Shown: positions 1,851-49,975 of the stretch, one piece after another
Layout of the letters: every line of letters begins with the position of its first letter
Numbering within the stretch: position 1 is the first letter of the stretch
Origin: Clavelina lepadiformis
Lineage: Eukaryota; Chordata; Ascidiacea; Aplousobranchia; Clavelinidae
Assembly (NCBI RefSeq): GCF_947623445.1
Contig: NC_135245.1
Span: 503,501 to 567,500 of the forward strand
Direction of reading: 5' to 3'
DNA: 64,000 nt
The notes under the pieces: generated by a model
What the model saw: only the letters and a program-made list of their open reading frames with translations
Databases searched by the model: none
Told to the model about the DNA's origin: nothing
Made by a program: the position numbers and the translations under genes

Positions 1851-1907
1851 CTCGTATAAATGTTTTTAGCCTGTAGCTAACACTTAGCAGAAAAGAACGA
1901 AAATACA

Positions 1908-3176: not shown

Positions 3177-3199
3177 CAACGTTCTTACAACAATGCGGC

Positions 3200-7258: not shown

Positions 7259-7565
7259 GTAGAGACTTACCTACCTATGGAAGTTGAATGCAAACAACTG
7301 GTTTAATTTCCAATAAGTGCGGTGAGTAATTTAACTTTAGAAGAATACAACACACCGCAAAAACTTAACTTTCTCTTCAAATGTCTGAGATGCTTTCGTT
7401 TGTACTTGTAAGTACTTGCAGAGCGCCGCCATATTGGTTTTTAGACTTTGAGCGAGTTATATCGCAGAAAGTAAACTGTTCTGAAGCGCGACAAGATGAG
7501 TAAACATTAAAAAACTACAAAGCAAACTCTTTCAGCAAATTTGTCAGTCAGTCAGCTCAGACATC

Positions 7566-8790: not shown

Positions 8791-8839
8791 CAGACGTTGT
8801 GTATTGAGTTAAGGAGCATAAATTGCTGCAACACCTTTT

Positions 8840-9700: not shown

Positions 9701-9738
9701 TTATCTAACACAAGCAGCAGTTTGATAGGCGCTTTGCA

Positions 9739-11835: not shown

Positions 11836-13109
11836 TTAGAACTTGGAGGAAGTAAGTTTTCCCCAAAGATTTGAAGCTAAATTAGAAAAGTATGTGGACA
11901 ATGTATTCTGACGTCCACACCGCAGTGTGTAAACGCCAAGGACAGAAAATGTTACAAGCACACCCATAGAAATCATAAGTTCTCGTTTAATACGAATCAT
12001 GAAGGGGTGTTTAGCCCAATATTCTTGTACAATATTTCCTCTCACATTTCTATGAGGAAATGGTTTGGAAGGAACATCAACTCCGAGGAATTTACACAGA
12101 GGTTCCCAACCTTCTTTGACATTGTACACCAGCAGTTTGTCCTTGGGAGCGTTCTATTAAAAAATTATCAGAAATAAAAATTAGAAGCTTGCGGCGACAT
12201 TAAAATTTCATATATTTTAAAGCAGGCCTACCTGTAAGACGTGGGCATTATGTCTTCGATAAGTCATCCTTGCTAAGAGCATGTTGAAACCAACTGGCTT
12301 AAACCAGGACGTCTTAGGGCTACATCCAAACAGCACTTTTCCTGAAAACCAACATCAAGCTGATTAAAAGGTTTAGTCTTTGCGAAAAGACCGGATAAAC
12401 TTAATTACCCAAAACTTACTTAAATTTTGCAATTTATCTGAAAGCTTACACAAGCTGTAGTTGATTTATTACTGCGAGTTACCTAACATATCATTGTATC
12501 CTGTAAATCTTCGAAGACTGGGTGACAAGAACTGGAGATGTTGCACAATTGGTGAAGAACCCGTCACTATTTGGTTGTGCAAGCTTGCTGCCCACGACTT
12601 CTCCTCTCTAAACATGAACACGATCTGCAAAGACATTCAGTGTAACTTCAATTCACCCGAATTTACAGAGAAAAGCTACGTCAATAGCATTGTTCATTGT
12701 ACAACTGCAGAACCATGCACGATACAAGTTATCAGTTTAAAACTCCTAATTTTAATTTGTTATTTTTATCGCGTTTTAGAAGTAGATAACAGTTTAGTTT
12801 CACCTATAATAACAAAAATTCAAAAAACTTAATAACAGTTCTTTACAGCTGACTCACTTTTGCCTCGGGAAAAGCTTTGTGGATTTCATCCCAGAAATAA
12901 AACGCTGGTGCATCTGTGACCGCGTCTACATTCTCGAACATTCGACGAAAGTCTTCCTTAGTTCCGCCATCTTTAAATATTTTCATCCAGTCCTCGTATA
13001 AATATTCAAAGTTTTCCATATAGTCGTACACATTGTAACCTAGTTCCTTCAATGCCGCTTGCACAGACTTCGTTCCAGTTTTGCCAAATCCAGCGCATAT
13101 CACTTTCAT
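11836..13109 (-). CDS. Sulfotransferase-like protein with C-terminal membrane helix, copy 5 (inverted)
   Basis: On the minus strand the exons are 13109-12858, 12624-12483, 12341-12232 and 12153-11836, with the same lengths as copy 1 for exons 1-3 (252, 142, 110), giving about 273 aa. Motifs are FGKTGTKSVQ, IVFMFREEKSW (Asp of the RDE replaced by Glu), MTYRRHNAHVLQ and KEGWEPLCKFLGV. The hydrophobic helix (LMISMGVLVTFSVLGVYTL) is followed by a polar tail of about 30 residues, longest of the five. A TTTCACCAG acceptor-like string ends one base before the ATG. The open frame continues upstream to 13409, but the family start is preferred. Confidence 0.85.
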
Positions 13110-26189: not shown

Positions 26190-26587
26190 TCACACAGTTT
26201 TCACTCTGTCGTCAGTCGGTGTGACGCAGCCTGGGGCCTCATAGTAAGGGGGCGGGGTGTCGTCTGCTAATCTTCCAGCCTTGATTGGTGCAGATGATTG
26301 CACTGCTGGGGGCTGATTGGCTAAGCAGTTGAATGGCTTGACAAGATCCAACTGGAAATACAAGACGAGGCCAAATTTAATGAAAACAGACTCTGGGTAC
26401 GAAATCCGGCGCCGGCAAAGATAACTCGTTGTCACTTTTGTACTTATGACGTCATCTCACCTGCTTCCTCGAGTACAAAATCTTCCCAAGAACAAAACTT
26501 GTTATGATCGCTACGGTAACGATGACGCCAACCAAGCAACCAATCAGGATGCTTTTCCAGCTCTCAGGCACAAACGGATAACCTGAT
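26190..26587 (-). other. Membrane helix and PPxY cytoplasmic tail of the REJ protein
   Basis: The exon at about 26587-26470 encodes WKSILIGCLVGVIVTVAIIT then SFVLGKILYSRKQ: a hydrophobic span followed by basic residues, a classic type I stop-transfer. The final exon 26352-26190 begins LDLVKPFNC and holds TPPPYYEAP and ends DDRVKTV. PPPY is the known ligand for WW domains, including Nedd4-type ubiquitin ligases; that this tail is bound so is inference. Confidence 0.7.
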
Positions 26588-29500
26588 TGGATATAAACAA
26601 GTTCAAAAATCATCCGCGAATAATTTTCTTAAAATTTCTGAGAAAGAGTTGGGTATCCACAGAAGTTACGTTGATTTTAACCAAGTGGGCAAGCTGGGTA
26701 AGTCCTACATATTCGCACTCAAAGCTGTCTGCATATTAGCACAAACCATTATCGGTCGGACATTCGCTCGCTCCTACGCAATCGTTGTCGTCATCAAAGA
26801 CAGACTGCTCAGGGCAGACGCAGAATGTGAGAGGGCGACATCTAGAGACGCATGACGGTGGTGCGATGTGACCGCATCGTGGTATGCACAGGCTGAGTGC
26901 AGAAACGAAATGACAAATAGACATAAACATATTAAAAACAAAGTGTAAGGGTATGACAAATTCTCTGTAAATATGGTCGAGAGTTGTATCGGAACTTGAA
27001 CCTTTTGTCTTTGATTGACTTTACACAAAACAAGGAATTCGGCTCCAACATGGTCGCAAGAATCACGATCGTGAAAATAGCAAATATGGTCGACATACGC
27101 GCGTGTTCGACGCCAAGTGGTAATTTGTTTAAAAACTTTCCATACCTTGAACATAGCTTTCTTTCCACTAGCGGCGCTATACAAGATAGTTCGCCAACTA
27201 AAGGTGACGTCATATCAGTGACAGCAGACGGTTGGACAGTTGTGATCACGTGAGGAAGGGAAAAAAGCCTATAACGGAAAAAATGTCTTGAGAATAAAGT
27301 TGCATGCAGCGTCAGAAAAGACGTGAATTCAAACATGACGTAATCAGCAGAATAGAGACTGACGCGTAATATCCGTGCGCTACATCACAGGAGCAGGTGA
27401 TTCCCCTGATCTGACCATCAAACCCTCTCTTTATCGCCACCACGCGGCAGTCCTCGCCCCACCAAGCGAAGTTGCTCCATCTTCGACACTAAGAGGAGTA
27501 AGAGTAAAACTTTTCAAATTATTATTTAATAAAGATTAAATAAAATATGTGACGTGATAATATGCTTTATTATCTCACATTTCCCACCTCAAGCCTAGTG
27601 GAAGAGTCGGCGTACCATATTTGGTCAAAATCAATTGTGACGGAAGAGTTGCTAGGCAACCTAAAAGATGCATCTCGACCTGATTCCGGGTTCAACAATG
27701 CGACCTACAAATGGGGTCATACTGTTAATACGTCATTTCCAAAATCAAAGTTACCTTTTCTATTTTGCAAGTTGGATAAGGCGATAATACTCACAGCTAT
27801 GACGTTACTAACGCGTTCCGCTTCACTGTCATACCACGTGACCACGTTGTGTTCGAAAATCCCTATGGCAACGCAGGCACCGAGACACTAGAAATGTCAT
27901 CATTAAATTAGGCAAAATCGAAACAGAAGGTTGCATTTGAAACCTACCTCCAAGTTAGCAGCGCACATCCAATCATTGAACGCCTTACTCACTGATGACG
28001 AAAACGAAACCTGTGACGTAGGAAGGCATCAGTACCACACCACAGCATACAAAATAGCACCATTTCTCATAATCTTATCAAAATACCTCTGAGTACTTAC
28101 CTGGTAATCTGCGTCTCCAAACACTGCGCTTTCACTTATGACGTCATACTTGCCCACAACCAACTTTGAATTTTCGCTCGATACTTCCAAAGGAGGTTCA
28201 AAGTACGCCACCGCGCGGCAAAACTGTGTCTAAAAGGGCGAAACGAATCGTTAGAGGAGAACTCACCCTGTAGAGGTTACCCAACTTCACCGCAGTGGGG
28301 TAAATATTTCACCAACCATTTAAAAGTCCCAAAAGATCCAGGTTTCATTTGCTTGGTATCAATTTCAACCAAATATGACGTCACCAGACCTTACCTTAAT
28401 TTCCATGACGTCATTCCGAAAATTCAAGCGCGGACTAATCATATCTCGCGATGCCGGATCACGTGACTCAAGGACTGCGTCATGCAAAGCTAGAATCTCC
28501 ACCACCTGCAACAATGACGTATGATGACGTCACAATAAAGTAGGAAGGTAATCGTGGAGTTCTTCCTCACCATTTCATTGGTCAGGACGGGATCAGAGGA
28601 TTCTAGATCTTCCAGATCTCGCTTCTTTCTTGAAGAGGAAGACCGACCTGAGAAAAGCGTCCTCATGTGAAATCAAATTCAAAAGTATTTCAGCAAATTA
28701 ACCTGAGTCTCAATTTAAGGCGCAAAAACAACTCCATCACAGGAACCGCTGTATACCATTTTCTACCTTTGAATATTGATGTCATAATATTCCCTGGTAT
28801 AGATGACGCGGCGTCTTTCGATTGGTTGGAAACACCAACACGTGAGTAAACGTCATTGGCGGATTGGAGGGTCTCAAGTGCTGCACTATTATGATGTAAT
28901 AAACAAAGTTGAAATAGTAAAAACGAGTGACATCAACTTGATTTGCAAAATGAGGTCGCTAATCTCACTATTCAGTTCTCGGTTTTACGTCATCGATATT
29001 TCTCGTGAAGTCATCAGCAAGTTTCTGTATCTGCTGTTCCTTTGCCACGTCATTATTATCGGAGAAGGCGTCACCAAGTGTCGCGATCAAGGCAGCGGCC
29101 TGGACAGGGTTTCCTTTTGAAAATAAAGCATTTCGATTTGTTACGTCACAGTCGTGATAGCCTGGTGTATTCGACAAAGCGATGACGTACCGGTCAACAA
29201 TGCCTCCTCTGCGAGAGTGTTGACGTTGCTGAATGCGTCATTTCCGCTTGATGGCGTAGTAGCGTTCAGTCTCACCCTGACAGTTACCTGAGCAAAGCTG
29301 CGTTTGACGTCATCATCATCATTTGCAACAAACATAACCACTGTGACATCATCAGCGCCTTCATCTAGAAAAAGTTATAAAATTTCAAAAAATGACGTTT
29401 TTTTAATTGAGGAGAAAAACTTCATAAAAAGACTACCGGGAGGTGGCAGTAGAATTCCACTGATTTCACTCGATTGTGAGAAAGGAACCAACAGAGTGAA

Positions 29501-32500
29501 CTTGAGTTTTGCGCCCGACTTCTTGTAATAACCGAACTTATAGACGAAGCCCCCTATCTCGTCGTCCTCGTTGCCTAGCAACGAATCACTTAAAGGATCA
29601 AACCATCCGGTGGCGCGCAAGGTGAAGGCGGTTGTCATAGTAACGCCAATTGGAGGATCAACCTGACAATCAAAGACAAACATAACTGATGATTGCGACG
29701 TCATTAATGAAGATGACTTGAATTAAATCACCTCAAGTTGTCCTCCCAACGGAAGTGATGACGTGAAGAAATCTACGTCACGTATGACGTCATCAGCTTG
29801 GAGGTGGAGGAGTGTGGCGATGATGCGGATCCTGTACTTCTTTCCAGGCTGTAGAACATTTTGCTTCAGAACGAGAGGAACGTGAGCTTGAGAGGAGCTA
29901 AAATAGAAATCAGATAACCCAGCGCAAATCATCGCCATCTAGTGACGTTTATTTCATTGATGATATGCAAATTAGTTATTTTCGCATATTTAAAATGATT
30001 CCATAGAAATCACTCACCCGCCCACAACAACATCCCTAGTAATTGGGGTCGACGATGAATTGGATAATTCCAGGATTTCACTCAGTCCATCGCCGGCCTC
30101 AGATGACCAGCTTATTCTCACATTTATTGGTGCAGTGTCAGCACTAAAAGTCATGGAAATAAGTGCTGGGTGTTGTAACTAACAATCCTACAGGCATCTT
30201 ATAGTAATCATGGCGGCAAATATTTCACTGATAAATGGCAACTCACTTGCTCACTCGAGCGTAAAATCTGTTAACACGTGACACTGAGAGAGGCTTCAAA
30301 ACTCTCCTCAGTTCTATCCGTGGGAGGGCGACAGAGAGCTTCTTGAAGGTCAGCAAAACAGAGTCTTGACTCGATCTTGCGGATCCTTTACTGACTCTCA
30401 GCGTAAAGTTGTATCTGGTGGAAAGATGATGACTCTAATGCAGTTAGGTTGCAAGCCATGGCTTCAGTGTGACAAGGGCACAGATGCAATTTAGCTGGTG
30501 ACCACAACGATTAGTTGTACGTGGACAAACTTTGAACTCAAATACACAAATCATTAACTGGCACAGATGAGTATGAATTAATTGACAAAAGCCTGTTTTC
30601 GAGTTATTTGGCACAAGATTTTCCGAATCCCCAACTTCGAGCTTCCCAACATCCCAAATCACATCGACAACTTATAACATCCATATCAGGAGGCGCCAGA
30701 TACTCACGTTCCATCTATCGGAAACAACCAAGCAGGAATAGACAACACTTCCGGGATTTCCTGCAAGCGTGAGAATATCTCTTCCGCCCTTACGAGTCTT
30801 CCTTCCTCATCTGGGTCGTGGATGACACAAGGAAGTCCTTCTATGTCATCACAATGCCACGAGTAAATCAAAGGAGTTGGATCTTGATTGGGGTCAAATG
30901 AGTTCACCCCAATTAAGGTCTGTAAATATGGGGTCACAGGTCAAACAATAGTTGTATTATTAAGTAGAAACTTAAGTAGTACACATAAAGTTACTGCTTC
31001 GCTACTAACTCATATGCACCAGCGAGCAAGAGATATAAACCACGTTCATAGTGCCAGTGCTCGGGGAAGCCAGAACACCACCGACATATTGGTTGTGTGC
31101 ATAGTAGTTAGCCACAATGATATACATGAAAAAATTACAACACAAATAATCCACTTGTAACAAACCAGTTGCTCTGATGAGTTGACGAAACCAGATGTGT
31201 GTTGGTGTTCGATCCTGGCAATGAGCGCTTCACTTTTCACAACGACCTCAACCTCAGCGCTGTCGGAACTAGACAAGCCATCACCAAAATTATAAGTGGC
31301 TGCAATATAGAGATCGATCATAATGCATTGGTGCAAGTTAAAATATCAAAAATAGCTGCACGGCACCCTTGGAAAAATTTCACACAACGATGTAAAGGTG
31401 TTTTACGTAAGAGGTCAAGGGTCAGACAAGTTAAATATATTTCTGAAGAGAGCCAAGCTGAAAGGAAGCTTTGTGTTCTTACTTCACATTTTTCATGACT
31501 TACGTTTAAATAAAGCAAGAAACAGCAGACGTTGATGCAATGGAAAATACCAGTTGTACCGTTATTTCTAATTCAAGCTTAATCTAAGTCATAGTAACGC
31601 ACCAGTAACAATAAATCTGTAAGTTACTCCAGCGACTAGAAGTCCTCTTGGGATGAACAGACTCGATCTCCATATTTGATCTACATCCTTAAGATTTTCG
31701 ATTGCAAATCCAACAGAGGACACGACACTCCAGTCATAGACAACTTCTCCATCATCCTGCAGAGTGTTCCGGAGGAAATCCTCACAAGCATCAAAGAGAA
31801 CTTTCGATTTCGCCTGCAGTATGAAATAATGACTCAGCGGATCCAACAACAGTGACTCAGAGAATTTACACCCAGGCAAGTTAAAGTTAACTCAGAAAAC
31901 GGCCAACTTCAAGTTTAGTTTTAACTTTTAACGCACCGCTATCTTCACATTGCGACTTGCAGTTATGACTCGTTCCTTCTCTCCTTGGATTGAAGTTTTG
32001 ATGAATCTTGGACGACCTTCCACGGCAACTGCATGGCTCGCAACTTTGCTAAAAACTCCCAGCACGTTCCTCACTTGCAGATGGAAAGTGTACACAGATG
32101 CACTCTGGGGGGGGGAAGAAAGATTTTGGTAAAAAATAAGCATAGTAATATTCAAGTAAGTGAATAAATAAATATAAATCTACAGAAAAAACATGGTGTT
32201 ATAAATGTCAATACAGGAAAATTATGTCTTCATACTAAACAACTTAAGGAAGACGACATAATAAATAAATGTACAGAAAACTATGGAGGAAAACAATATA
32301 ATAATGTTTAGGAGCAAAATTTTGAGAGTTGCTCATACAAAGAATAAACACCAGCGCCAAAGGTGCTCATACATATTACATATCTTTTAACTCTTGTGTT
32401 CATTCTAAATATTTCTATAATTGTCAAAAAACAGATAAATGGTGTCTTTAGATCAAACAACGTGTGCAAGACAACATGATATCACCTGCACATGGCCAAT

Positions 32501-35500
32501 GTCTTCCGTACCGACTGATTGACGACTTATTCGAGTCCAAGTCACATTGCTGCCATCTGGTGACTGACGCGTCCAAATAAACTTTAGAGGCCAATTGCCG
32601 ATACTTTTCCCAACTTTATAGAATAGCTCTCCGTCACAAACCCCGACCGCTGTGGGCCCACCCAGAGAGAGCTTAGGGGTAACCTGGGTTGAAAATGGGT
32701 TAATGCTGCAGTGGTTTTGTGTAGCTAATATTTATTAATCATTATCTAAGTCATCCTCAAATAATTGATCAAAAGAATCCAATAGAAGCAGTCAAGTCTT
32801 AAATGTTACAAAATCTCATGAGGGGAAAACCCGCAAGTAACTCACCGCGCGTCGAGGATAAAGAATTTCCACCCTGGTGAGAGGGAATTCCCCGTAGAAT
32901 AATTCTCTCCCAAAAACAGTGGCACCCTCCAGCAGAAAAATTTCCCCGATGCTTTCATCCGAGCCACTCCTGTCATCAATTTCATCGGCTAGCACGTGAT
33001 ATGATTGAAATATAGTCAAAAAATACAAAAAGCATTGTTACAGACACAATATAAGCGCAGAACACTACGGGCACACAAACCTGTCACATTGACAAATAGA
33101 TAGTGGTTCAAATGACCTAGCAGTCGTATTGTTACAAGCAAACAGCATGGCACCTACCAGCACGACTGAGGTTATTGAACAGCTTCGAATTTGCAGATGG
33201 TCTGATGTAGACCTTGCTTGATTCCCGCCCTACACAGACTGATTTCGTCCCCAACAACTTAACTGAGTCTGGATGAAGGAAACCGGAACAGGAATAACTG
33301 GGTTTAAAGTGCAAGGGTTTGTCGAATTCAATCACAATGTAATTGAGGTCATCAGAGAGTTGGGCATCGATGACCCTCGGTGCTGTCTCCCTGTGCAAAT
33401 GAGACCAAACAGTATAATGCATGGACAGACCAACTCAGAATACGATGACTATTAAGAGTAAAATAGATTACCAGTAATAGAACTTTACAATTTTGTGTCT
33501 CCTGAACAATTCACCAGCTGAGTTCAACTCTGGCAGCAAAGCCAGGTCAGGCTCGACATAGACATTGACCTGACCTGGACGATGAGATGCCGGCATCAGG
33601 CACATCAGCTTTGTGGCACTGATGTACCTACCAACGACAAACTCACGTTTATGAACAGAAGATAGGACTTTGCTAAAATTGAGCAAATAGCCGACAACGG
33701 AATTAAGATTTTACAAGTTAATCCCTGAAAACATACCTAGATTTTCTGTTGGCAGTTTGGGTAATAATCTTCTTTATGACATCATAAAACTCAAAAACAC
33801 AAACATATGAGAAATCAGCTATGAAACCATTTCCACTGATAATGACAGTTGTGTTGGAGTCGATCTGTGCAGACTTTGGAGTAATACTTCTTACAGCAGG
33901 CCAGTCAGACGTGTAGAACAGCACGTTGTTCGGGAATGTAACAACTAATTCTTCCCTAAAATAAGAAATTTACTTCAACGTTTGTAAACAAACCATTTCA
34001 GTAGCATTACCAGTAGGTTGATGGCAGAGAAAATAAATGCACAGTAAATGAGTAAACATTGTGTAACTATCTATGAATAATGGATGAAGAATAAATTTTA
34101 TTTGACATATGTCATTCTCACCTGTTCTTCTTTCTCAACGAACATGTAACCGTTGCCACAAACACAGGATATCGCACATTAATATTTGATGTCTCTGCTT
34201 TCACCAAAAGCGCAATGACGTAAAAGTTCTTTGGAATAATTTTAAGACCTAAATGTAAGAGTTGTCACTACAATGAGCAAACAAAAAATTCGAAAAGCAC
34301 AAGTCACAATCCAACAACACATCTGGTTGGGCAGGTCCGAGTGGTCTTGGTTACAAACTAATATAGCTATTGACTTCTTCGTACCAGTAGATAACCAACT
34401 AACTTGTGTGCTTAAGATGTTTATGGTACTTCAGCACAGTCTTCGCAGAGGTTATATTCGATGTGCCGATGTCCACAGAGATATCCTTGACATCATACGG
34501 TTTAGTTGAAAAGTCGTATAATGACCCGTCCAGAGTACAAGCTGCGTTGTGGTAATCGGCAAATCTTCCGGTGAGGATGACGTAGAAATAATCTTCATCA
34601 CTCCCCACTTGATAAGAAGGATACAGGACGCTGAGATCCGACACGAAACTCACACAGCCTGTGATGTCAATGAAAGATTCGACCAAATAACGTTCAGTTT
34701 TGGCGAAACCACAGGAAGCAACAATAATAATGTAACAGGAAGAGTGTTCTGTGGTGGTTGTGCGTGTATGACGCCATTTTACTCTGACCAACTTTCAAGG
34801 ATCAATTTGTTTGCAACAAGATTGCAAATTGGAAACACATCATAGCATTGTGTGAGAAAACACTGTAAAGAAAACTCGGCGATGGTTTCGTCATAACTTT
34901 ACCTTGGTTGAATGAGGGGTCATCTGGGTTCAAGCAGGCCCCACAATCATCGAAGACCATCTCGCTGTTGATCTCCCCATCACAGCCCCTACATGTTGAG
35001 TTATCACCCCCACAAACTCCACAAGCATCCTCGATGGTGTACGTGGTGTTGGCGACCACGCACGCCCCACAACTGCAGGGAAACAAAGAATTGAAACAGA
35101 GGCCGATATCAAAAAAGAGCTTTTCACATTTATCCGTTCACTGGGAAAAATGTAAATTAATAATTTTCTCTTAGACACAAACGCTATCACCTGTTGACAG
35201 GAGTATCCCCGAAGCATTTACCAGCACAATCTTTGACCCTATTCGGTCGTCTCCTAAACATGGAAATTATATTTATCCTGTCAAGTTAGAGTAATATCAT
35301 TTGTAGTGAGGAACTGACCTGTTTTGGCAAAACCTGCAATCGTCCCAGTAATTTTCACCCAGGCAACTCCCCCCGCAATCTAGCCCCGCATTCACCTTAA
35401 TACCGGTTGTCCCGTCCGAACAGACCCCGCATTTATCAATACTTGCATCTAAACAGAGATAGTTACTAGATCATTATCAAAACCTATTCATTCTATTTAT

Positions 35501-38500
35501 TCATCAATTCATTTCAATTTGGCGATTACAAAATAGGTTCTCATAAACAGTAGACATAACTTCTTGGATAGAAAACACAATCAAACCCAGAATAAGTATT
35601 TTAGGTCTGGGTGAAGTTTAACTTTTTTTCTTTCCAGTTTTACACGTTTTTCAGATTCTTGTCACAACCGTAAGAGCAGAGCCTACTTCCATGTCTCACT
35701 CCACTGCAGTCAACGCAGAGGTTTCTGCCTCCACAAACACCGCACCGGTCCAACTTGAGAAGAGACGACTTGACCCCATCACATCCGGCACGCTCTATAT
35801 AACCCACCACATTCTCCGCACTCACGAAGCCTGTGATATTACTTGTGATGTCATAGCATGGCTCATCCTGTAATACAAAATCAAAGTCGTAAAACTGTCA
35901 ACCACCGTAAAACACACTGAGATCACATTCAGTAAGTTAAATTTAACTCTGTCAAAGAATAATAAAAAATACAATATCACGAATCAAAATAATAATAATT
36001 ATATTAATGATACAGAAATCTTCACAGACAAAGCAAGACCTACTTAAACAAGCACTTTAAATGAAATGATAATTAATTCATCGAACTCTCACCTCATCTG
36101 CGCAGAGGTCAACCACAATTACTCCTGTTTCCTTGAACTTTTCTATTAAAGAATCAAATTTGCGCGGAAGAATTTCAAGTTTCCGGGCATTCCAGATCTT
36201 TATTTTTAATTTAGTGTTCACTCTTGCCTCATCAGCAGACCAGAAAGTGTCAGATGAAACCGGTTGAAACCGGATCATACAGGATGGAGATACGAAGAGA
36301 GCTGGCTGCATTACAAGGCCATCAGCTAAATAATCCAGAAATATTTTTATGAAACTAAAGAACTCCAGCAGCTGGAAATATGAAATGAAATAAACCACAG
36401 ATCTCAAACCTCTGCCCATAATTTCGGATACTGACAACCACTTTCTTTCATCACAATTGATCTGCCATTCTCCTGTTTAAAGACAATTTTAAAATAATTA
36501 ACTTAAAAACAAACATCCTAAAACCACGTTATGTCCACTTGCCAAGACGGCTCCCTTGTGGATTAGTGACCACAATGCTTAAATTTGCTTGCAGGGGTCC
36601 AAGCCTAGAAAGTTTGCTCGCCATTGTTTGAGTTGGAAATCCACGATTATCGGCGACAATGAAGGGCACAAGCGGAAGGGGAAACCCCTGCAGTAGGTAT
36701 CGAGGATGGACGTTTAATGGGGGATCCACCTACATGAAACATGTGGATTTTTAAAATTTGTTCGTTGTTTATAATTCAAAATGTGATAACGCTCACATAG
36801 ACATCTTACCAAGATATTGAACCTGGTCCACCGAGCACTATGTTGGTATTTTGCGAAGAAATAAAGATTTTGAGGAATTTGTAAAGAAGAAGATTTTATA
36901 ACAAGTTCATCATCAGCGTTGAACAAAAGGTGATTTTCGACATCTAACTTCACCAAAGATCGCTTGACAACCTTCTAAACCAGCAGATAAATACAGAATG
37001 ATAATAGGTTGACAAAGGTAGTAAATGAAAGCATAACTTTTCACAAGTAGCTGAGACCCTTGAAGAAGCTCACCAGGGAGATTCAAGCAATACATTGATA
37101 CCTGGAGCTGCTGGACAGTGAAACCACGCAGAGTGTCTTTGTGGAAAAATATTTCAATTCTTTGTTGTGCGATGAAATCGAACAACTGCTGCACATCTCT
37201 GCTGCTCTTATCAAGTTTCAATAAAGTGGAAAGACCTGCCAAAACATGAACAGAATTCATCTTAATTATGATAATATGGTAAACTACAGTAATAAATACG
37301 GTAACTCAAAATCAAGTTATAGTGAGAATGCGCAAGTACTTCTTTAATTACCAAAGTACATTAAAATATAAATTTTTAAAAGCATCTAGTGCTCACCTAT
37401 GACATCATAATGTAAATATTGGACGACACGAGATACTTCGATTTTAATTGGATTCCATTCATCAGTTGAAAGGAGCGCAGATGATGAAGTGTCTTTAGCA
37501 ATCTCATCCATTATATCGTCCTCACTCAACCCATCTCGTTCCTTGGGATAAACCAATAGACCAACCCGTAAGTCTAAAAAGACAACAGATTGACACCAAT
37601 ATTTCCTAAATTAACATTTTACATCGTGTTTAGGTCACTTTCATTTCATTTGTTGTCGCTTATCTTCAGATTTTGACCCAAGTTATTACAACTATGGGCA
37701 CAGTGGTATAATATCTGACCTTTCTCTTCATCAACTGAAGTGAAAGTTGCCTGCACCAATCCAAACTTGTTTCCATCAGTTGGCACAAACCTTATTATGT
37801 TATTCTTGTCAAGTATTGTGCCTGAAAAATGTTATTGTATATATTCGTGTGTAAGTGTATATGTCATACTTCCTAAACTGTGGCTCAAAAAATGGAACAA
37901 ACTGTTTTGAACAGACTTTATTTGTGACTAAAGCACCACATTTAATATCTATTAACTTTTAAAGTTGTTCCATTTTTCGATCTTACATAAGCCACAACCG
38001 GTTTTGGTAAACGCAAGAATAAATAGACGACTTTATTAACAACAATACATCCTGTACACCTACTGGCTAAGCTGAGTTAATCAAGGCTTAGAGTATTTAT
38101 CAGTTTCTTTTTTATAATTTAAAAAAAAATTTAAGATTAAATTATATGCACGAGTAAGACCTGTAAGATGTTTATTATTTAGTTCCCACCTTCTCTTGCA
38201 CATATCCAGCCCAAAGAACACTGGAGTGATATTCCCGCGAAAGGACCATCGCCAAATTCTGATTCTGCTGGATCTTCATCAAGATCAAGTCTCTTGCGAT
38301 TAACCTCATCAGGATTCTTCACTGGTTTTCTGTCACTCAGATTTGGCTCCACCTCCTCTCTTCTCTTCCTAGAACGCTCCTGGGTCTCTGGAGATCAGGA
38401 AAAGTAAAATAATAGCAACTCAAGAAGATAATACAAGAAATCCTTCATGAAAATATGAGTTTAAAAATCTGCCTAACCTTTATATTCAAGTCTGCCGTCC

Positions 38501-41500
38501 TCAGAGTTTGGCAATTTCTTTACTTCCACAGGACCAGTTACTGGCAAGAGGTTGATCAGCAAGATTCCTTTGTCTTCATCGGCATAACTTGGCTGGTAGG
38601 GAAGTACGACTACTGGAAGGTCTTTGAAGAACAATGGAAGGAGAACGGTGAATGAAAACAATTGAGCATTGCTATGACACGATTATCAATGACTTCTCAT
38701 CATGTTTATCATGATTATGATGCGCACCGTGATTATTGCGATTATTCACATCATGTCAATTGTCTTACCATCATCAAGGTACTCGTGAGGTTGATCGGTG
38801 ATGTGAGGCTTCACGCATGAGCGCAGATGTTGTGAGATTACATCCAATGATGAAGAAGTATTCCTTGAACCTTGACAATATAATTGGTATATGACAAGAT
38901 GGTACGAATGACATATAATTTGTCCTAACCAATGAATAATTTATGAACAGGTGGAAGTACCAGGTGAAGTGCTTTTAACGAAGCCTTTATCAGTTACAGT
39001 GGACAGCAAATCAACTAAAATATCAGCAAACGATGTTAGATTAGTGCCTTCTGGAAAGTTCTCTTCATAAGCTTCATGCATCATTCCTGGAAAATATTAA
39101 AAATTTTCATCCTATATCAGTTAAACATAAGTAGGTTGACACAACTTAAGATAATGATGAGATTATAAAGTCACAAACCTGACATTGTCATATTGTTCAT
39201 CAATGATTTCATGTGTGAAAAATGTTCATGCATAGTAGCATTGGTTATGTTGCTGCCATCTGCTGGATGCTTAAATGGTGTGCGATGAAATTGAGTGAAA
39301 TTCTTCGAAGTGTTACTTACAATTGCGAAGGAATCTTCCATTGTTTGAGCATAATGTTCAGTGGTAGCAAATATGTCAAGTAGTGTACCGTCAATCAAGT
39401 TCACCATTTCAAACGCCTTAATAAATATAAGAAATCGATTTAAAAACACCATGTTTTTAACCATTTTGACTCGAGTGGAGTTGGCAAGGTCTTCATGATC
39501 AGTTGGAATATCTTCATGAAGATCAGAGAAATTATTTCTATAAAGCAGTGTGCTTCCATGCAGTCTCGACCAGACAATGAATTCCCTCAGAGTTTCATAA
39601 AAGACTTTGGTAGACTCTGAGTGTTTAAAGATCGAACAGATAAGATTTTCTTCTCCATTCTCCTGGCAGATCTTCCTCTTTAAGTGACTGCCATCAGATG
39701 GAACATCAACGTTGAGATCTTCCTTTAATGGGAAACTGTCATCTTCATCATCTTTGGAATCATGAGAATCACCACGATCATCTTCGAAATCATCATTAAC
39801 TTTCTTGGAATCATGAGAATTATCACGATCAACTTTAGAATCATGAGAATTATCATCATTACGATCATGGGAGTCTTCATGTTCATCAAACCACTCAAAG
39901 CTAATATCTTGTTCTTGAGCAAACTCAGAATTGATTCCGGTGAGTAAGTCATTAACGTCTCTTACTGATAAGTCAACATACAAATCAGACAACCGATCGC
40001 TGCTAAAAAGATGAAGTGATTCCATGAAGAACTGAATCCAAGGCACAGGAGACATAGTTGTGTCTGCTTTCCTGGTAGCGTTATGGGAATATGGATCAGT
40101 GTCATCGTCATAGAAATCATATTCACCCAGATTATCGTCATACAACGTATCAAATTGATATTGATCATGATAGTAAATATCATAATACTGATCGTAGTAA
40201 AATCCATAAAGGTCATCATAATGTTCATAAAGTTCATCATAACGGTCGTATATTGCATCATAAACGGCTTCAACTCCATCATGATGGTGAAGACTGTGGA
40301 AATTATCCAAAGATAACTCGGAAAGCAGATGCAAAGAGTGAGAAAACGTTTTCTTGAAATTAGTAAAAGATCGTTTCAGCTTCAACAAAATCTTGTGACC
40401 ACTTCTAAGCGCTCCATACTGGATGTCGACAGCATCTCTCAAGCCGTCAATACCCAGGCCATCAGATAGTGACATCACAATTGCATTCTTAAGAGCGATA
40501 TGTCCAATGTGATCTTTCACCTTCAAGCCTAAACGTGGAATCTTCTCAAAAGAACTTCCGTTAACAGATGGCATATATCTAAAATTCAAAATAACTTTAA
40601 CAGTTTAAACTCACAAACCGAAAAACAAACGTCCAGTTATCTATCATGCAACTGGTTCACTGCAATTTAAAAAACCTACTTTTGGGTATAATTTAAAATA
40701 AGATTGGAAACATGATGTTCTGCATGTAACCAGTCATTGGCAAGACTCCTACATCCCTTTCTTTTGGCTGCTTCTATGCTATGCTGGGACAAGGCGTATG
40801 CAATGAGGTCAACACCTGTGTTTCACATGTCTTTTAGGGCATCTCACATTGTTTATAAAAGATTAACAACAAACATGATTAATAAAAAAATAACATATAC
40901 AAAAAAATTATATTGTCTAAACCAGGGATGTCTAACCTTTTATTATAGTGGGCCGCATTGTCACTTGAAATAATTGAATGGGCCGCAAAACCTATTAAAT
41001 TTCAAGAAAAATGGGTACATAAAGTACATACTTTTGGAGTGAAAATGACTAGCGGGCTGCACAAAAATCTCAGGCGGGCCGCACTGTGGCCCGCGGGCTG
41101 CAGGTTGGACATCCCTGGTCTAAACTATAGAACCAAATTATTTTGTGTGCGCCAAGTATAATGCACCAAGTATTATAATTTTACAAAATACCTTTACAAA
41201 TAAAACCAACCAAAACGGAACTGGATTGTGAGTAAAATAAACTCACCAAAGAGTTGTTCTTCAAAATGTTGCATCAAGAATTGCGTGAACCTTTCTTTGT
41301 GGTGTTTGTAAGTGGCGGAATCATTTTCACTGAACAAACCAAGAATAAAACTGATTTTAAAGCCCAAAGTGATACCATTTACAGCACCATGCACCGTAAA
41401 ACAGTTTAAAAGCAAATATTAATGCCTATTTCTTTACATATATCCATCAACTGACTCATCATCTTTATAATGATCGGAGATTCCTCCAGATATCTCAGAT

Positions 41501-44500
41501 GTAAAATTGATCGGTTTTCCCGGTTTTGAACTGTTGCTATTTAAATCATGATCAGGTTTTGGATTTGGTTTTACGCAAGATCGAATTTGACCAATCAGGG
41601 TTCGCCAAGATAACCAGACATTGTTAGAATCTGGAATAGATGGTGAAATTTGCTAAATTGTTCATCTATTTCAGAACAAGTACGCAGGCTATAAGTAGAA
41701 ATATAAATAAAAGGCTTATTAATAGACAAATAGTCTATTAACATAGAAGTAGGCTCATCAACATGAAAACTATATCCAAGCTACCATTAAATATAAACTT
41801 CTTACCACTTTTGTTGCCAGCTGTCCAGTTCTGCGTTACAAAATCTATAAAAAACCTCGTGAAATGAACTTTTTTTGATGTTTTGTTAAAATTTTCGTTT
41901 TTTTGATCAGCAGTTGCATTAAAGACTGGATCTGAAAAGAAAACTTTTTAAAAAAACTACCAACTCAGAATTAACGATGCAATAATAAAACTGAAAATAG
42001 AGATTTAACCAGCGCTTCTCAACCTTTTTTTGTCCCAGGCCGAACTTATGTTTTTAAAAAAATTGTACACCCAGTGGCATATTTAGGCGTTTTTAAAAGC
42101 TGAGTCTAAAATTCCAGCAATTTTCCCACCTTGTACCTCACCCAAAATGCACGAAGTGCAAAAATTTGGAGTTCTTAGGCCTCAAAAATGGCTTTAAAAC
42201 GCCTCGAAATGAGATGTAAATCTCTCGTTTATACAAACAAAAGTTCACTGTTTACGATGTAGAATTTTGAAACCCGTTTATTGTAAACTTTCTCAGTTAT
42301 GTTGTAGCCAATAAGTGGTTGCAAACAAGGGAATGTGATGAACAAAAAGGACCAAAAAAGCTTATGGCCCACAAACAATTGGGTTCATGAGGGCATTTAA
42401 AACAATTGGGTTCATGAGGGGTTGGGAGATGGCCATCCTCTTAGTACACAATCGAACAGGAACAGTTGCATTCTCACTCAATTTCAAAGCGAAAGTTGCA
42501 AAAAGTGATCACATATTTCTTCACAATGACACCCACAAATTTCGCCAAGCCCCATCAGTGGAGCGAAGCCCCACGTTAAGAAACACTGGATTAAAGAGAG
42601 AGGCAATTTCCGCACCTTCATATAAGTCAAATGGTCTTGATTTATTCCCTGCAGTAAACGGTGATTGATGTTCGAATTCTTCATGATATTCATCAAATTG
42701 ATTATGACGGATGTTGTTACTATGAGATGGAATGTTGAGCAAGACAAGTAATTCTGAAGATAAACTCTCGACTTCCAAAATATCAAGGAAGTCAAGAAAA
42801 AAGTCAAAATCACTTCGATTCTTCATCAACTCTCCAGGATGGTGAGTTGTGTTCAAACTTTCAGGCTTTTCTTGCAGCAAATTACTTTTATTTCTAAGCC
42901 AATCAGCAGCTTTCATTATAATGTCACGGCCAACTGCAGCTAAATCCATATCAGTCCAGCAGAGTGTGCCCTTGTGCTCATTATCGTCACAGTTTTTGTT
43001 CAAATTTCCGATAGATTCCACTTGGCCAGTTTCATGAGAGTTTTGCTTCTCATCTTCTTGGGATGGTTTTCTGGGTTCAGTGTTTCCATCTCGCAAATTT
43101 ACTTCAGCTTCCTTTACATGAGACACGTTATGGTCCATTGTGTCTTTCCATTTTGGGAACACTGGCATGTCTTCATTATAATTAGCAACTTTTTCTGCTA
43201 AAACTTTGTGGATTTCTTCTTTAATCAATGACACAAACAAATCCAGCTTTCCAGTTTTTTGCAATTTTAAAAAAGTGTTGAACAACAAATTAATCCATGG
43301 ATTTTCTTCAGCGCCATCTTCATCTGACATTATGATTCCATTACCAGGACTTGTTTGACCGTTCTTAGGATGGTCAGCATGAGTATCAGGTAGCTGGCCA
43401 TCATCAAAATTGCCAGGAAAATCATTTTCATAATCAAACATGCTGCCTTCATTATATGCAGGAGATTTCCACGAAACAGGACCGGCTTGGGCGAAACCAT
43501 TTCCATCGAAATTATTCAAATTCCGGCGGTATTCAGTAGCAGCATGAAGTTTCCACTTCAGACAACTCAGTAACAGTTCAAAGTCAGCCGTGGAAAATGT
43601 GGAGTGGTTCTGATGAGAGGCAGAATGGTTCATATTTTGCAGATGGTGAGCCAACCATGAAATTTTATCCAATGCATCATTTGAAAAATGGTGCTCTTGG
43701 CTCTGGTTCACGCCATTTAGGTTGGCACCGAATGAATGGTTGAAATTTTTAACCATATTAACCAGCTGAGCTGAAGCATTGCTTTGAAGCCGAGTCATTG
43801 AAGTATTTTTGGAATCTCCAACCCACTCTTTCATCAATTCAGCAAAGAATGGAATTGAGTCGTTGCTGGTTTTTTCAGACTCAAAAGTTTTATTGCGTAA
43901 ATCTTGTAAAAGTCGTTGCCAATCACCAACATCCATGAAGTTTGGGAATTTTTCCAAAGCACGATCACAGATTCTGTCTTTCACAGCCGAGTGCTTTTGC
44001 AAAAATATTGCCGAAGATTCTTTCAATCTGGCCACAACATTCCTCAGCTGCAGCCATTTATTAAAGATGTGCGGTTGCAGAAGATGTCGCCTGTACATGT
44101 CAGATTTTACTTCTTCCACTGAGCTGCCTTTTGATAATGATGTCACAACAGCATATTTCATAACAGCATAAACCATGCGATGACTGAAGATGTGAGAAAT
44201 TTCAGACTTCTGAGAGATGTTGAGAGAAGTTGATCTAAATTTTTGATATTTAGCGATGAAATCATCGAAACAACCAAACAATGTCACAACGTTTTATTTT
44301 ATAAGCTCTAACTTCATTGAAATGATGCAAATTAAATTTTTAATCTGAAAACACTAAATTATCTTACTCGTGAAAAAATTTGACGAGCATCTTCGAAACA
44401 TAACGCTCTGCTTCAAACCACTTCTTGCTAAGATCAACGCATTTGTCATTATTCTGCATGAAATGCTTCATCGCATCCATGTTTACAGCTCCTAGAAAAT

Positions 44501-46352
44501 ATTTAAAGTAATTCTACGTCCATAGTTCACGAGAATTGTTTGCTACAGTTTTGCAACTTACATAGCCATGTTATTAAGACAGTACATGCAAGGTGAAAAC
44601 TTTAACATACATTTTCAACCCAGACTCAGCACGAGTTATGTCAAATGGTAGATTACAGGCCTTTCAAGAACAACCACAGGACATTTAAAAACACAACAAG
44701 TCACAACAACACTACAACATGGGATTTTGATAAAACACCTTACGGACATTTTTCGCAAACAGAAAAGTTCACCTTCTCCATAACTTGTGTGGCCGTCGTC
44801 TTCAAGCGGGTTTGTTTTGTGAGAAGAGTGAGGGGTATCTTTATCACTCCCTTGAGGTGACGTCGACATTTCATCATGATGGTCGTTTACACTCGCCCTA
44901 CATAAGTGATTATGACATAAAAAACCAATGAACCTGGTTAACCATTGTTCATACCTCAGGTGACCAGAATTCCCTGGCGCCTGCAGTAAAACGGGGTCTT
45001 CACTACGTGTGATTTGCAGCAACTCTGCAATATAAAATTTGGGTGAAATCACGAACATTTTCAAATTGACTTTGAAATCATTTAAAATGAAAATTTTAAA
45101 AACGGAATTAGTGAGATAAGCCCAATTCAACAACACCATATCGTACCATGTGCTTGCTGAGTTTGCACACCTTCATGGGTGATCTTGCTGGCTTCAAGAT
45201 GTGCTGGAGATGCATAGTTCAGGTCTCTTTTAGGAGGTTCATCGTTAAGAGGCTTCTTTTCACTCTCTCTGTGAAACATTTAACAAAAGCAAGATGAGTG
45301 AGGAGCTAAGTGGACTCATCACAACTGCCAGTTCATGAGCAGAAGATGTCAGCATTGTGCTACAAATTATATTATTGCAAATGCAGTGGCACCATTCTGC
45401 ACTGGCACAGCGCACTCTTTTCCAAAAGCACCAAATTCTTGTATCAAGTTGGTGTTTTCAAGCAATTTTAGTCGATAATTTTAGTTACTTTATGAAAAAT
45501 ATTTCCAGTGCTCACATTTTCGGACGTTAGTATAAGCCTGATTTTGTCAAGTTGTTGAACCTTACTTAATAGTTTTGTTTGCAAGTGTAAATAGCAAATC
45601 AATCTTTAAAGTTTTAAAAAATATATATTTATATTATATGAAGCATGTAGCACATAAAAGTAACGGCAAAGATTGCGGATATTAGTAAATGAGATACCTC
45701 TTAAACATTTAAATTACGCTAAGTTTGTCTAAGAATCCCTTTACAAGAAACTGAGAAAGAACTTCTTTCTTGAAACTGAGCAACCGCCCAAAAATATGTT
45801 GTATTATACCGCATAAAAGTTAAGACACCTTGGTCATTTGTAATTGACAAAAAAATCTGTTTCTTTGATCTATTTTTGAATGTGTCTTGCATAATAATTG
45901 CAGAGTTTTATTCAAAATATTCGGTTAGTTTCATTAATTGTTGTAATTTTTTTAACTGGATACAGAACAGTTCAACTCTTTCTTAGTAAACTTGGGTTTA
46001 GCACAAGTCCATGGCTTGATAAGTCACGAAACTCTGTGAGAAACTTTACAATAACAATTGAGTCCAAACTCAAGAAGTAAAAGACGCAAATATTTACCAT
46101 AAGTTCCAACCCAAATCTACTAATGAAAAATGAGCGCATTGCTTTGAATTCTTAACATGCATATTATAATTATGCTTGTCGGCATAATTATAGAATAGAC
46201 AGACATCTCAAAGAATCACAGACATCTCAAAGTGCAGTCTAAGGTCAAGAATCTTCTCTGATCTTATTTATAAATTAATAATACTAACCCAAGGGGTGGC
46301 GGAACTGGTGGACTAACTTCTTTGCCAAATGCTTGCAAGAACACCAGACATA
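26190..46352 (-). CDS. Giant REJ-domain single-pass receptor-like protein
   Basis: More than 45 exons on the minus strand chain with matching phases from 46352 down to about 27.3 kb, and further exons reach the stop at 26190. Order: signal-like segment (VCLVFLQAFG), two copies of an unrecognised module (44491-41247 and 40773-38769), furin site RKRR (38370-38359), a part with no family match (38.2-36.1 kb), CGVCGG cysteine repeats (35871-34906), two IPT/TIG-like domains (34.66-33.47 kb), REJ region (33.4-28.4 kb), second basic site RKKR (about 28625), GPS-like motif (about 27490-27390), TIL domain (27203-26735), membrane helix (26587-26470) and a 53-residue tail with PPPYY. REJ proteins act as sperm or polycystin-type receptors (sea urchin suREJ1 has one membrane span). 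Length is estimated at 3,000-3,700 aa. The ATG exon before 46352 and the junction into the membrane exon are unresolved; the last exons could belong to a separate transcript. Confidence 0.7.
26735..27203 (-). other. TIL (trypsin-inhibitor-like) domain split by one intron
   Basis: Two exons join in phase 2 to give ten cysteines with TIL spacing: C(9)C(3)C(3)C, then C(3)C, CVC, C and C. Diagnostic pieces are LCSSLCIPRC, PSCVSRC, FCVCPEQ and CVGASECP. The first exon is about 27203-27134, the second begins at about 26895. A TIL domain is not usual next to a GPS motif, so exon membership in the REJ gene rests on phase agreement and position. Confidence 0.7.
27300..27495 (-). other. GPS-like motif of the REJ protein
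   Basis: The exon opens in phase 0 after the preceding exon (ends STRLE) and reads CRRWSNFAWWGEDCRVV, then GITCSCD. The C..W, W...C.V and C.C pattern is that of the GPCR proteolysis site motif. The HL(S/T) cleavage tripeptide is not present after the last cysteine in the open frame. An alternative donor before the C.C pair cannot be excluded. Confidence 0.55.
28395..33400 (-). other. REJ (receptor for egg jelly) region
   Basis: The region opens with APRVIDAQLSDDLNYIVIEF and CSGFLHPDSVKLLG, the usual lead-in of REJ regions, and continues with VCDGELFYK (the C.G motif), WPLKFIWTR, YTFHLQVRNVLG and RYNFTLRV segments typical of the repeated beta strands of REJ, over about 15 small exons with mutually consistent phases. 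Family knowledge: REJ occurs in suREJ proteins and polycystins. The region ends after a basic site RKKR at about 28625. Confidence 0.75.
33475..34656 (-). other. Two IPT/TIG-like immunoglobulin-fold domains
   Basis: The clearer domain is in exons 33956-33730 and 33686-33475: VRSITPKSAQIDSNTTVIIS, GNGF, then CLMPASHRPGQVNVYV, the standard TIG order. The exons before it (from about 34656 and 34250) carry a weaker, similar unit with YFYVILTG and CTLDGSLYDF. Phases 1, 1, 2 and 2 agree between exons. Confidence 0.6.
34906..35871 (-). other. CGVCGG cysteine-rich repeats
   Basis: Four exons carry repeats of a D-x-CGVC(G/S)-G...C.DC.G type: RCGVCGGRNLC, KCGVCSDGTTG, DCGGSCLG, DCAGKCFGD, EDACGVCGGDNSTC and DDCGACLNPDD. 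Similar tandem CGVCGG units are known in many extracellular proteins of protists and animals and once in ADAMTS proteins. Their function is not known to me. Confidence 0.7.
36476..36542 (-). other. GC-AG intron in the REJ gene
   Basis: The upstream exon ends ...CGTCTTG and the intron starts GCAAGT, the classic GC donor. The acceptor CAG precedes GAGAATGG. Only phase 1 keeps the downstream exon open (EWQINCDERKW), and phase 1 is what the GC donor gives; the nearby GT would give a frame that meets a stop. Confidence 0.6.
38769..40773 (-). other. N-terminal module, copy B, of the REJ protein
   Basis: Exons 40773-40680, 40578-39179 (1,400 nt), 39086-38961 and 38870-38769 run in phases 1, 2, 1, 1, 1. 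The long exon has a helical start (HIGHIALKNAIVMSLSDG), a Tyr/Asp-rich stretch with DYYD-like pieces, and an acidic DNSHDSK repeat, then N-glycosylation-type NxT/S sites. It aligns exon by exon with copy A. No known domain is recognised. Confidence 0.7.
40923..41117. mobile_element. hAT-type MITE, 195 bp
   Basis: Ends CAGGGATGTCTAACCT and its inverse with one change, flanked by a perfect 8-bp duplication GTCTAAAC at 40915-40922 and 41118-41125. The interior is rich in GGGCCGC. It is in an intron of the REJ gene between modules A and B. Confidence 0.88.
41247..44491 (-). other. N-terminal module, copy A, of the REJ protein
   Basis: Exons 44491-44368, 44234-42616 (1,619 nt), 41931-41806, 41630-41438 and 41329-41247 join in phases 1, 2, 1, 1, 2, 1. 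The long exon starts in a helical stretch (SHRMVYAVMKYAVVTSLSKG) that matches the same place in copy B, then has NHS/NQS glycosylation-type sites and PWINLLFNTFLKL, matching PWIQFFMESLHLF of copy B. Two hAT-type MITEs lie in introns inside and just after this module. Confidence 0.7.
42010..42588. mobile_element. hAT-type non-autonomous element, 579 bp
   Basis: Ends CAGCGCTTCTCAACCTT and an imperfect inverse copy (TTAAGAAACACTG), flanked by GATTTAAC and GATTAAAG (6 of 8 match). More diverged than the other copies. It lies in the intron after the long exon of module A; that exon's frame happens to stay open into the element. Confidence 0.65.
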
Positions 46353-46399
46353 CTGCGAATAAAAAAATGATGTTAAACTATTGACATAATCAATGTTAA

Positions 46400-47890
46400 C
46401 TCAAGTTTTTATTGAATAAAACTGGCCAAGTGCTATTTCTCTATGGTCTGCATCTCTCATCACAAGAAACATCATCAGCCCAACTAATTAAATTCCTTCT
46501 GGTTAATTGGACAGCTGAGGTTACAGCGAAAGAATTATGCAACTCACCCACAATATGTGAAAGAACAGGGTTCTTTCAGCTTTAGGGTTCTTTCAGCTTT
46601 ACAAGGACAATCAAAATAAACTCTCATTTTAAAAGTTCAACACATTATACAGTCTAAATAAGACTTTCAATTAAGATGATGAGGGGATGCCAGGACAGGC
46701 AAATTGACTACACTTAATATATGGGAGACAACTGCCACACAGAAAGTTATTAAGGCTCCAGTTTACCAAATTATGATATTTTTGAATAAAAGCAATAAGA
46801 AGTGGAGATCATTAATATTTAAAATAGTTCAAAACTGTCCTTTTGTCGAATTGTCTAACACAAGCTATAATTACCAAACAATGAACTTATTATGACAACA
46901 GCAAAACCAACCTGTTATTTGTGATAAAAAAGAAAAGGGTGTCTATAGCTTGTGAACACACCTGATAATGGTGCTTCATGGCACAGACATTTTACAAGGT
47001 TAAACACTTGGTGGTGCCAGACAAAGCAACAGACTTACAATAGCCGAGAAACCAAAAGCATTACAAATAGGACCAACTTGGTAAGTAGTTTTAAAATTTA
47101 GTCAAAGCCAAATCCAATCTTATACCGTGTTGAAGCACTCAGGCAAACTATATACCAGTACAAGGGTCACCAAACTACAGCTCGCGGGCCAGATCTAGCC
47201 CGTTTTACTGAATCACAAATGAGCTTATTGTATGGCAACCTATTAAAGAATATAGGAATTTGGCCCGTGATCGTCAGTTCTCATGCTTATTTCGCCCTTT
47301 GGGAAAAAAGTTTGGTAACAGCTGTACTAGTCGGTTTATTGCTAATTAAAATGTTTCAACTGCATTTGTGGTAGCAATCGCCAATTGCTTGGCAGTCTGA
47401 AACAAGTTTTTTCAAACTTAGATTTTGTTTTGTCAGAAGATGGCACCGAAACTCATCATGGGTGGGACCTGAAGTAGAAATATACAAATATCTCTGAGTG
47501 CGACGGTCCAGCAAACAACAGGAAACTTTACAAATATCACTGCATATACTGAGTATGGTCTTTCTTATGGCTCTTCATATTGCATTTGTAGAACATTGTC
47601 AGGTGCGTCCTTGTACTTACTCTCTAGAATTCATGAAAAATAAAGTCAAAACTATTCACTTATTACTTTCACAAACAAAACATCTTATGTGCATAATAAA
47701 TGTAAAATAAGTGTTGTACAGTTCGCTGGTCAGCTACAATGAGAGCAAAGCAAATGAATAAATGAACCAAGATTGAATCAGACGATGCAGCAAAAGTGAT
47801 AAGACTTAGCACAAACAAGCGTAATAATCAACTTTTTCACATAAAATTTCAGAAAATATTTCCATAAATATCAAACAATGTAAACTAAAG
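46400..47890. other. Spacer between REJ gene 5' end and DARS2
   Basis: The first coding exon of the REJ gene should be here on the minus strand, giving an exon that ends in phase 1, but no single ATG exon stands out. Otherwise the stretch holds one hAT-type MITE and nothing else recognised. Confidence 0.4.
47161..47324. mobile_element. hAT-type MITE, 164 bp
   Basis: Ends CAAGGGTCACCAAACT and inverse of CAGCTGTTACCAAACT, flanked by TACCAGTA and TACTAGTC (6 of 8). The inner CGCGGGCC / GGCCCG pieces resemble the other copies. Confidence 0.65.
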
Positions 47891-49758: not shown

Positions 49759-49762
49759 GTTG
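49759..49762 (-). promoter_or_regulatory. Possible trans-splice acceptor leader of DARS2
   Basis: On the minus strand ATATTTCTATAG is followed by CAAC and then the ATG. A leader of four bases from a cis transcript start would be odd, so a spliced-leader acceptor is plausible. Inference. Confidence 0.4.
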
Positions 49763-49975
49763 CTATAGAAATATCACTTTATTAAACAAACAAAATGTAC
49801 TTTAAAAGCTTTACTGACCAGTATTAAACAAAAGAAGTTAGTAAAAGATAAACAAAATCAAGTAACTCAGTGCCTGACCGCTCAGTCTGCCAGTGCCAAT
49901 TTCTCAAAAGTCCAAAAAATGTATAAACATGTGATATCAACTTGGGGTATTTCCCTAACAAGATTTCACAAAAAC

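Follow-up and report, generated by a model that had tools for sequence, protein, structure and literature searches.

REJ proteins take part in gamete recognition in sea urchins and ascidians, and their ectodomains vary greatly among members. Polycystin-1 proper has a PLAT domain after its first transmembrane helix, 11 transmembrane helices and a PKD cation-channel region. The sea-urchin proteins SpREJ1, SpREJ8 and SpREJ9, as described in the available part of PMC1934368, have a signal sequence and one transmembrane helix, with a REJ domain that is partial in SpREJ8 and SpREJ9; the heavily glycosylated ectodomain belongs to SpREJ1, which binds egg jelly. In the s-Themis sperm receptors of Ciona, the accessible portion of PMC7018956 names GPS and LH2/PLAT domains and, for the B type, also a PKD channel. 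Here we describe a REJ-domain gene of the ascidian Clavelina lepadiformis. It lies on the minus strand of a 64,000-nucleotide stretch (NC_135245.1, positions 503,501 to 567,500; hereafter the window) and was modelled from 46979 to a stop codon at 26190. We consider it rather probable that a block of four exons, A-B-C-D, at the N-terminal end of this single-pass, REJ-family receptor-like gene was duplicated in tandem long ago and now contributes to a glycosylated recognition stalk.

The initial annotation had described a tandem module of five exons in the region 38769..44491. The exons concerned, in the order of transcription, are the following (nt, nucleotides).

44773..44897, minus strand: exon X1, preceding module 1; phase 2 to 1; the candidate fifth exon, not similar to E1
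44368..44491, minus strand: module 1 exon A1, with the motif C..L...W..AE..VS..L; phase 1 to 2
42616..44234, minus strand: module 1 long exon B1, 1,619 nt (or 44183-42616, 1,568 nt), with a helical start, a PWI segment and C-x9-C; phase 2 to 1
41806..41931, minus strand: module 1 exon C1, 126 nt, weakly similar to C2; phase 1 to 1
41438..41630, minus strand: module 1 exon D1, with RSCVKP and a weak donor; phase 1 to 2
41247..41329, minus strand: linker exon E1 between the modules, outside the repeat; phase 2 to 1
40680..40815, minus strand: module 2 exon A2, whose acceptor is weak and whose main support is its homology to A1; phase 1 to 2
39179..40578, minus strand: module 2 long exon B2, 1,400 nt; phase 2 to 1
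38961..39086, minus strand: module 2 exon C2, 126 nt; phase 1 to 1
38769..38870, minus strand: module 2 exon D2, with RSCVKP; phase 1 to 1

We observed that A, B, C and D are present twice in the same order. The short exon with its motif, the exon of exactly 126 nt and the RSCVKP exon were all found in both copies as first listed, but the fifth exon was not: X1 and E1 are unmatched between the copies, and we therefore take the repeat unit to be four exons, not five. The introns before A, B, C and D have phases 1, 2, 1 and 1 in both copies, the chance of four introns agreeing in this way being ∼0.01. The claim that exon phases are kept thus holds for these four introns, but not for the exit of D, which differs (1 to 2 in D1, 1 to 1 in D2). 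Four cysteines are also common to both copies and collinear: one in A, the C-x9-C pair in B and one in the RSCVKP of D, at positions 17, 456, 466 and 641 of module 1 and 21, 349, 359 and 572 of module 2. The spacing of the pair is identical, and module 1 has two extra cysteines.

To quantify the likeness, all 1,081 pairs among a hand-picked list of 47 model exons were scored, with 100 shuffles each. The A1/A2 pair ranked first (shuffle p ∼4e-5), B1/B2 third (p 5e-4) and D1/D2 fifth (p 2e-3), and X1/E1 came at rank 154 (p 0.11). Unrelated pairs were interleaved among them, X1/R1 at rank 2 (p 2e-4) and A1/S4 at rank 4 (p 1.6e-3), so no single exon pair except A is decisive. When the exons were taken four consecutive ones at a time, A1-D1 against A2-D2 ranked first of 820 non-overlapping pairings, with a summed −log10 p of 12.7 versus 5.4 for the best pairing outside the A-D register; the next four rows kept this register with an offset of one or two exons. 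Within B, sub-segments picked after inspection of the sequence gave p 0.004 for the helical start and p 4e-4 for the PWI segment (PWIN in one copy, PWIQ in the other), both of which the initial annotation had paired. BLASTP of B1 against B2 returned a sole piece better than E 0.05, starting at the PWI segment (E 0.001). Single-segment searches covered 8,716 open reading frames (ORFs), drawn from the window and from 20 other stretches. The A segments recovered their partners at E 0.08 and 0.12 and the D segments at 4.1 and 1, and apart from the query itself no row ranked higher; with B and C segments as queries, the partner did not appear in the four best rows. An old tandem duplication is the sole reading of these comparisons that we consider likely, and the proposal of old, well-diverged copies agrees with the high ranks of the exon pairs and of the four-exon register. 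The duplication is of the ordinary exon-block type, which is common in evolution.

Several results weigh against this reading. The C1/C2 pair taken alone is near chance (rank 66 of 1,081, p 0.04). The long-exon proteins had been expected to align above chance, and they do so as whole exons and at the PWI segment, but the similarity fails to reach significance over the last part of B, from the Cys pair onwards (p 0.36). The best whole-module BLOSUM45 alignment opens out of register by pairing A2 with an internal part of B1. Searching the genome (209.06 Mb in 95 contigs), B1 does not find B2, nor B2 B1. Much of the long exon B is too diverged to align, and a whole-exon MAFFT alignment put the start of B2 in the wrong place. 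Shuffles that preserve local windows weaken B to p 0.004 (BLOSUM62) and 0.026 (BLOSUM45) and leave A unaffected.

From this side it could be argued that the two blocks are unrelated and that their likeness stems from shared composition (helical, Asp/Ser/His-rich, secreted) together with motifs picked by eye. The weakness of B and C when each stands alone, the reduced B signal under window-preserving shuffles, the Cys-pair stretch, the out-of-register alignment and the p of 2e-4 attained by unrelated exons all agree with that explanation, as do the acidic and repetitive linkers; those of B2 are Tyr/Asp-rich and Asp/Ser/His-rich, and module 2 holds two short tandem repeats. It does not, however, account for A1/A2 and D1/D2 being mutual best or equal-best rows among the 8,716 ORFs, for the first rank of the block pair with no comparable score outside the register, or for phases, the 126-nt exon and cysteines matching in the same order. 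We judge a coincidence of this kind very improbable.

The gene model supplies the remaining points against the duplicated block within a REJ gene. Our gene finder was home-made, worked on the minus strand only, assumed a single gene and was partly trained on the REJ gene itself. In its three listed runs (run 2 at three penalties) only 3, 5 and 6 of the nine module and linker exons were reproduced exactly: A1, C1 and B2 in run 1; A1, E1, B2, C2 and D2 in run 2 at each penalty; and A1, C1, D1, E1, C2 and D2 in run 3, where B2 was split. A2 was missing from two runs and truncated in the other; B1 came out shorter in every run. The B1 acceptor, the A2 acceptor and the D1 donor are weak splice sites, and A2, B1 and D1 rest more on homology than on splice signals. 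When the modules were left out of the training of the codon table, C1, E1 and A2 scored slightly negative; B1 and B2 kept their coding-frame preference. The coding scores of B in runs 1 and 2 are circular, since the codon table included B1 and B2, and the agreement of run 3 is not independent, because the exons under judgement had supplied the training set for its splice and codon tables. AlphaFold, run without relatives on B1 and B2 alone, returned a pLDDT (predicted local distance difference test) of 35 and 40, which is very low confidence. In both models two coil linkers separate three helical blocks, a picture of no evidential value at such confidence; we did not use them, and the hope that fold prediction would reveal shared helices was disappointed. 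A GPS-like exon further down the gene remained without a Pfam match up to E 10, and the assignment of modules and REJ domain to one transcript comes from the gene model.

The two long exons, given as 1,619 and 1,400 nt in phase 2 to 1, were both present, but the 1,619-nt length of B1 hinges on a weak acceptor (−4.0). At 44183 lies a second acceptor in the same frame, with a much better score (2.4); all three runs selected it, so that B1 may be 1,568 nt. Judged by sequence similarity the longer form is the better one (score 74 vs 54), and we regard 1,568 nt as likely as 1,619 nt. The region contains stop-to-stop ORFs of 590 and 477 codons, where ∼3e-8 runs of at least 466 codons are expected, and the reading frame is uninterrupted across the ten joined exons from X1 to D2. 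The exons following D2 (38621 to 37397) keep phase 1 to 1. Beyond them, a coding-like minus-strand stretch at 36532-36760 (VDPPLNVHPRYLLQGFPLPLVPFIVADNRG...) has splice phases that give no clean join to the next exon, and the gene model around it is uncertain.

The remaining landmarks of the gene are as follows.

46289..46979 (46979-46962, 46911-46875, 46352-46289), minus strand: proposed signal-peptide exons, MKHHYQVGFAVVIISSLFVCLVFLQAFG; in gene-finder runs 2 and 3, absent from run 1
33737..33955, minus strand: IPT/TIG domain exon; Pfam TIG 22.5 bits against a cut-off of 20.9, E 1.1e-4, single ORF
28969..31813, minus strand: REJ domain (Pfam PF02010), about nine modelled exons
27326..27488, minus strand: GPS-like exon, with a W- and C-pattern recognised by eye, CRRWSNFAWWGEDC...ITCSCDVAHGYY
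26744..26892, minus strand: TIL cysteine-rich domain exon; Pfam TIL E 7.7e-6, splice sites set by hand
26461..26582, minus strand: exon of the single transmembrane helix; hydropathy 2.68
26190..26351, minus strand: last exon, with a short cytoplasmic tail containing PPPYY and the stop codon

On the joined exons PF02010 matched at E 6.7e-36 over profile positions 13-451 of 452, nearly its full length, and on one unspliced frame at E 1.1e-7. The modules had been placed in a REJ-domain gene; this match, on the same strand, bears that out if, as we infer, the exons form one transcript. The IPT/TIG match falls below the cut-off on the long unspliced frame, and an ADAMTS-type cysteine-rich match is also below cut-off (E 0.0028). 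The usual GPS carries an HL-S/T cleavage triplet, which the GPS-like exon 27488-27326 does not have. The joined first exons have a hydropathy of 2.6, their signal peptide being judged by eye and not by a predictor, and exon 26582-26461 holds the sole 19-residue window above 1.6 within any single exon of the 49-exon list. The model protein has ∼3,350 amino acids, some of its exons being doubtful.

The blocks might instead be the N-terminal exons of a separate secreted gene lying upstream of the REJ gene. Several weak splice sites, the exons between 38.6 and 36.8 kb with no Pfam match and a one-transcript assignment drawn from the gene model would all allow this, and the chaining of module and REJ exons by a finder that assumes a single gene on the minus strand is no independent proof. 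In the model, on the other hand, hydrophobic stretches of signal type are confined to the start (46.98-46.29 kb) and those of transmembrane type to the penultimate exon, as one secreted single-pass protein needs; the exons after D2 also continue in phase 1 to 1, no search for the first exon of a second gene having been made. We consider a separate gene unlikely, though a serious candidate, and retain the single REJ-family gene as the preferred reading.

A different proposal, that the gene is the local counterpart of the Ciona s-Themis sperm self-recognition receptor and the modules its hypervariable recognition region, receives very little weight from us. Two further features of s-Themis are its pairing with a fibrinogen-like v-Themis gene and a polymorphic N-terminal part. 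What speaks for it is that this is an ascidian gene which combines a REJ domain with a divergent N-terminal part, as s-Themis does in the accessible portion of PMC7018956. Against it, the minus-strand frames at 24-42 kb yielded no PLAT domain, and of the 50 PLAT matches listed genome-wide not one is on the contig that carries the window (contig C6). The model also ends after a single transmembrane helix. The PKD cation-channel family was likewise absent from Pfam scans of the minus frames at 24-42 kb, no genome-wide search having been aimed at the channel.

Returning to the duplicated block of the REJ-family gene, we found 20 N-glycosylation sequons in module 1 against 8.3 expected (a count attained by 0 of 2,000 shuffles) and 12 in module 2 against 4.9 (3 of 2,000), an excess that would fit passage through the secretory pathway. 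Both modules are acidic, with a net charge of −21 in module 1 and −50 in module 2. As first claimed, no known domain fits them: neither had a Pfam match above cut-off (below it were BORCS6 0.053, Nop14 0.4, TetR_C_19 0.036 and Spectrin_7 0.039), NCBIfam had no match for B1 or B2, and a Protein Data Bank search with B1, B2 and a profile of the helical start gave no credible relative. The one match below 0.01 in that search was of 8gbe, protein A47, which we take to be from a poxvirus, to B2 (39180-40577; E 0.0012, 85 residues). B1 lacks the same match, and we therefore judged it to be chance.

Further members, which the initial annotation would have counted as support for a new family, did not appear. 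Genome searches returned only the query itself for B2, and itself and one match at E 5.6 for B1; no third copy appeared in the rest of the window. Segment profiles were run on stretches lying upstream of REJ loci, 20 of them (10 kb each) at ten loci and 4 at three further loci, covering 10-20 kb upstream of each. In these 24 stretches, at 13 other REJ loci that are a subset of the places behind 74 REJ matches, nothing was better than E 0.04. As the B1 query missed even B2, the silence of the genome search is weak evidence. Genome searches with the REJ end and with the IPT part of the protein found only the gene itself. It is doubtful, in our estimate, that the module founds an undescribed tunicate extracellular family, a glycosylated four-cysteine helical domain forming a two-headed region for gamete or colony recognition. 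The literature searched, which leaves most subscription papers outside it, has no description of a duplicated, orphan, sequon-rich N-terminal module on a single-pass REJ protein.

The best-supported role, suggested by the position of the modules, their sequons and the REJ relatives, would be that of a surface recognition or adhesion receptor in which the two modules make the contacts. Each copy, ∼590-690 residues long, would be secreted and N-glycosylated; it is probably helical for the most part and has long acidic linkers, with its sequons presumably used and its cysteines disulfide-bonded. With modules, REJ domain and remaining exons on one transcript, the pair would project from the cell surface on a Cys-rich/IPT/REJ stalk and might contact a ligand or the matrix, by analogy with the binding of egg jelly by sea-urchin SpREJ1. 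The PPPYY tail may serve trafficking.

Two introns of the block hold repeat-like DNA. The intron between E1 and A2 contains an element resembling a miniature inverted-repeat transposable element (MITE) at 40908-41132, presumably hAT-like, with 31-nt inverted arms that are 84% complementary and CAGGGATGTC-type ends. In the intron between B1 and C1, the stretch 41994-42600 is repeat-like and its ends resemble a hAT MITE by eye; an inverted-repeat search of it left the two ends unpaired. Elsewhere in the window, a cluster of Sulfotransfer_4 (PF17784) genes occupies 1881-13427 on both strands, with three sampled ORFs at E 2.2e-25, 7.4e-26 and 1.4e-27. A class II (D, K, N) tRNA synthetase, which we assume to be of the mitochondrial aspartyl type, is encoded by a single ORF at 47899-49773, upstream of the REJ gene and on the same strand (Pfam E 2.5e-100).

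Of 74 REJ exon matches with E up to 0.1 across the genome, 60 fall in four regions, at 21.5-24.7 Mb of contig C2, 23.08-23.73 Mb of contig C3, 22.45-23.84 Mb of contig C5 and 12.92-13.27 Mb of contig C9, and several PLAT matches on contig C5 lie ∼3 kb from REJ matches. Clavelina lepadiformis thus has a large REJ/PKD1-like expansion, which is possibly linked to recognition. With polycystin-1 our gene shares the REJ domain; it differs in that no PLAT was found, one transmembrane exon is followed by the stop at 26190, and a GPS is suggested by eye only. With the polycystin-1-like sperm receptors s-Themis-A, -B and -B2 it has in common the ascidian host, the REJ domain and a divergent N-terminal ectodomain (accessible portion of PMC7018956). 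No counterpart of the LH2/PLAT domain of those receptors was found in the minus frames at 24-42 kb.

Since no PLAT was found, the layout resembles that of SpREJ1, SpREJ8 and SpREJ9 and not that of polycystin. The features of the REJ/PKD1 family, in the sense of the available part of PMC1934368, are present in the form of the REJ domain at E 6.7e-36, and hydropathy indicates the signal sequence and the transmembrane helix. The family also has a GPS ahead of its first transmembrane helix, for which the Clavelina gene offers the W- and C-pattern seen by eye at 27488-27326, without a Pfam match. The N-terminal parts diverge: the part of PMC1934368 at hand gives SpREJ1 C-type lectin and EGF domains and SpREJ9 Ser-rich regions, unlike the Clavelina protein, and names for the SpREJ proteins neither the orphan module nor IPT or TIL. 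SpREJ1, at 1,450 amino acids in the same source, is also much shorter than our model. The orphan duplicated module would add to the REJ proteins an architecture absent from the literature searched and is a target for asking what the REJ ectodomains of colonial ascidians bind, on a protein that shares with SpREJ1, SpREJ8 and SpREJ9, as they appear in the available part of PMC1934368, the REJ domain, a signal sequence and one transmembrane helix.

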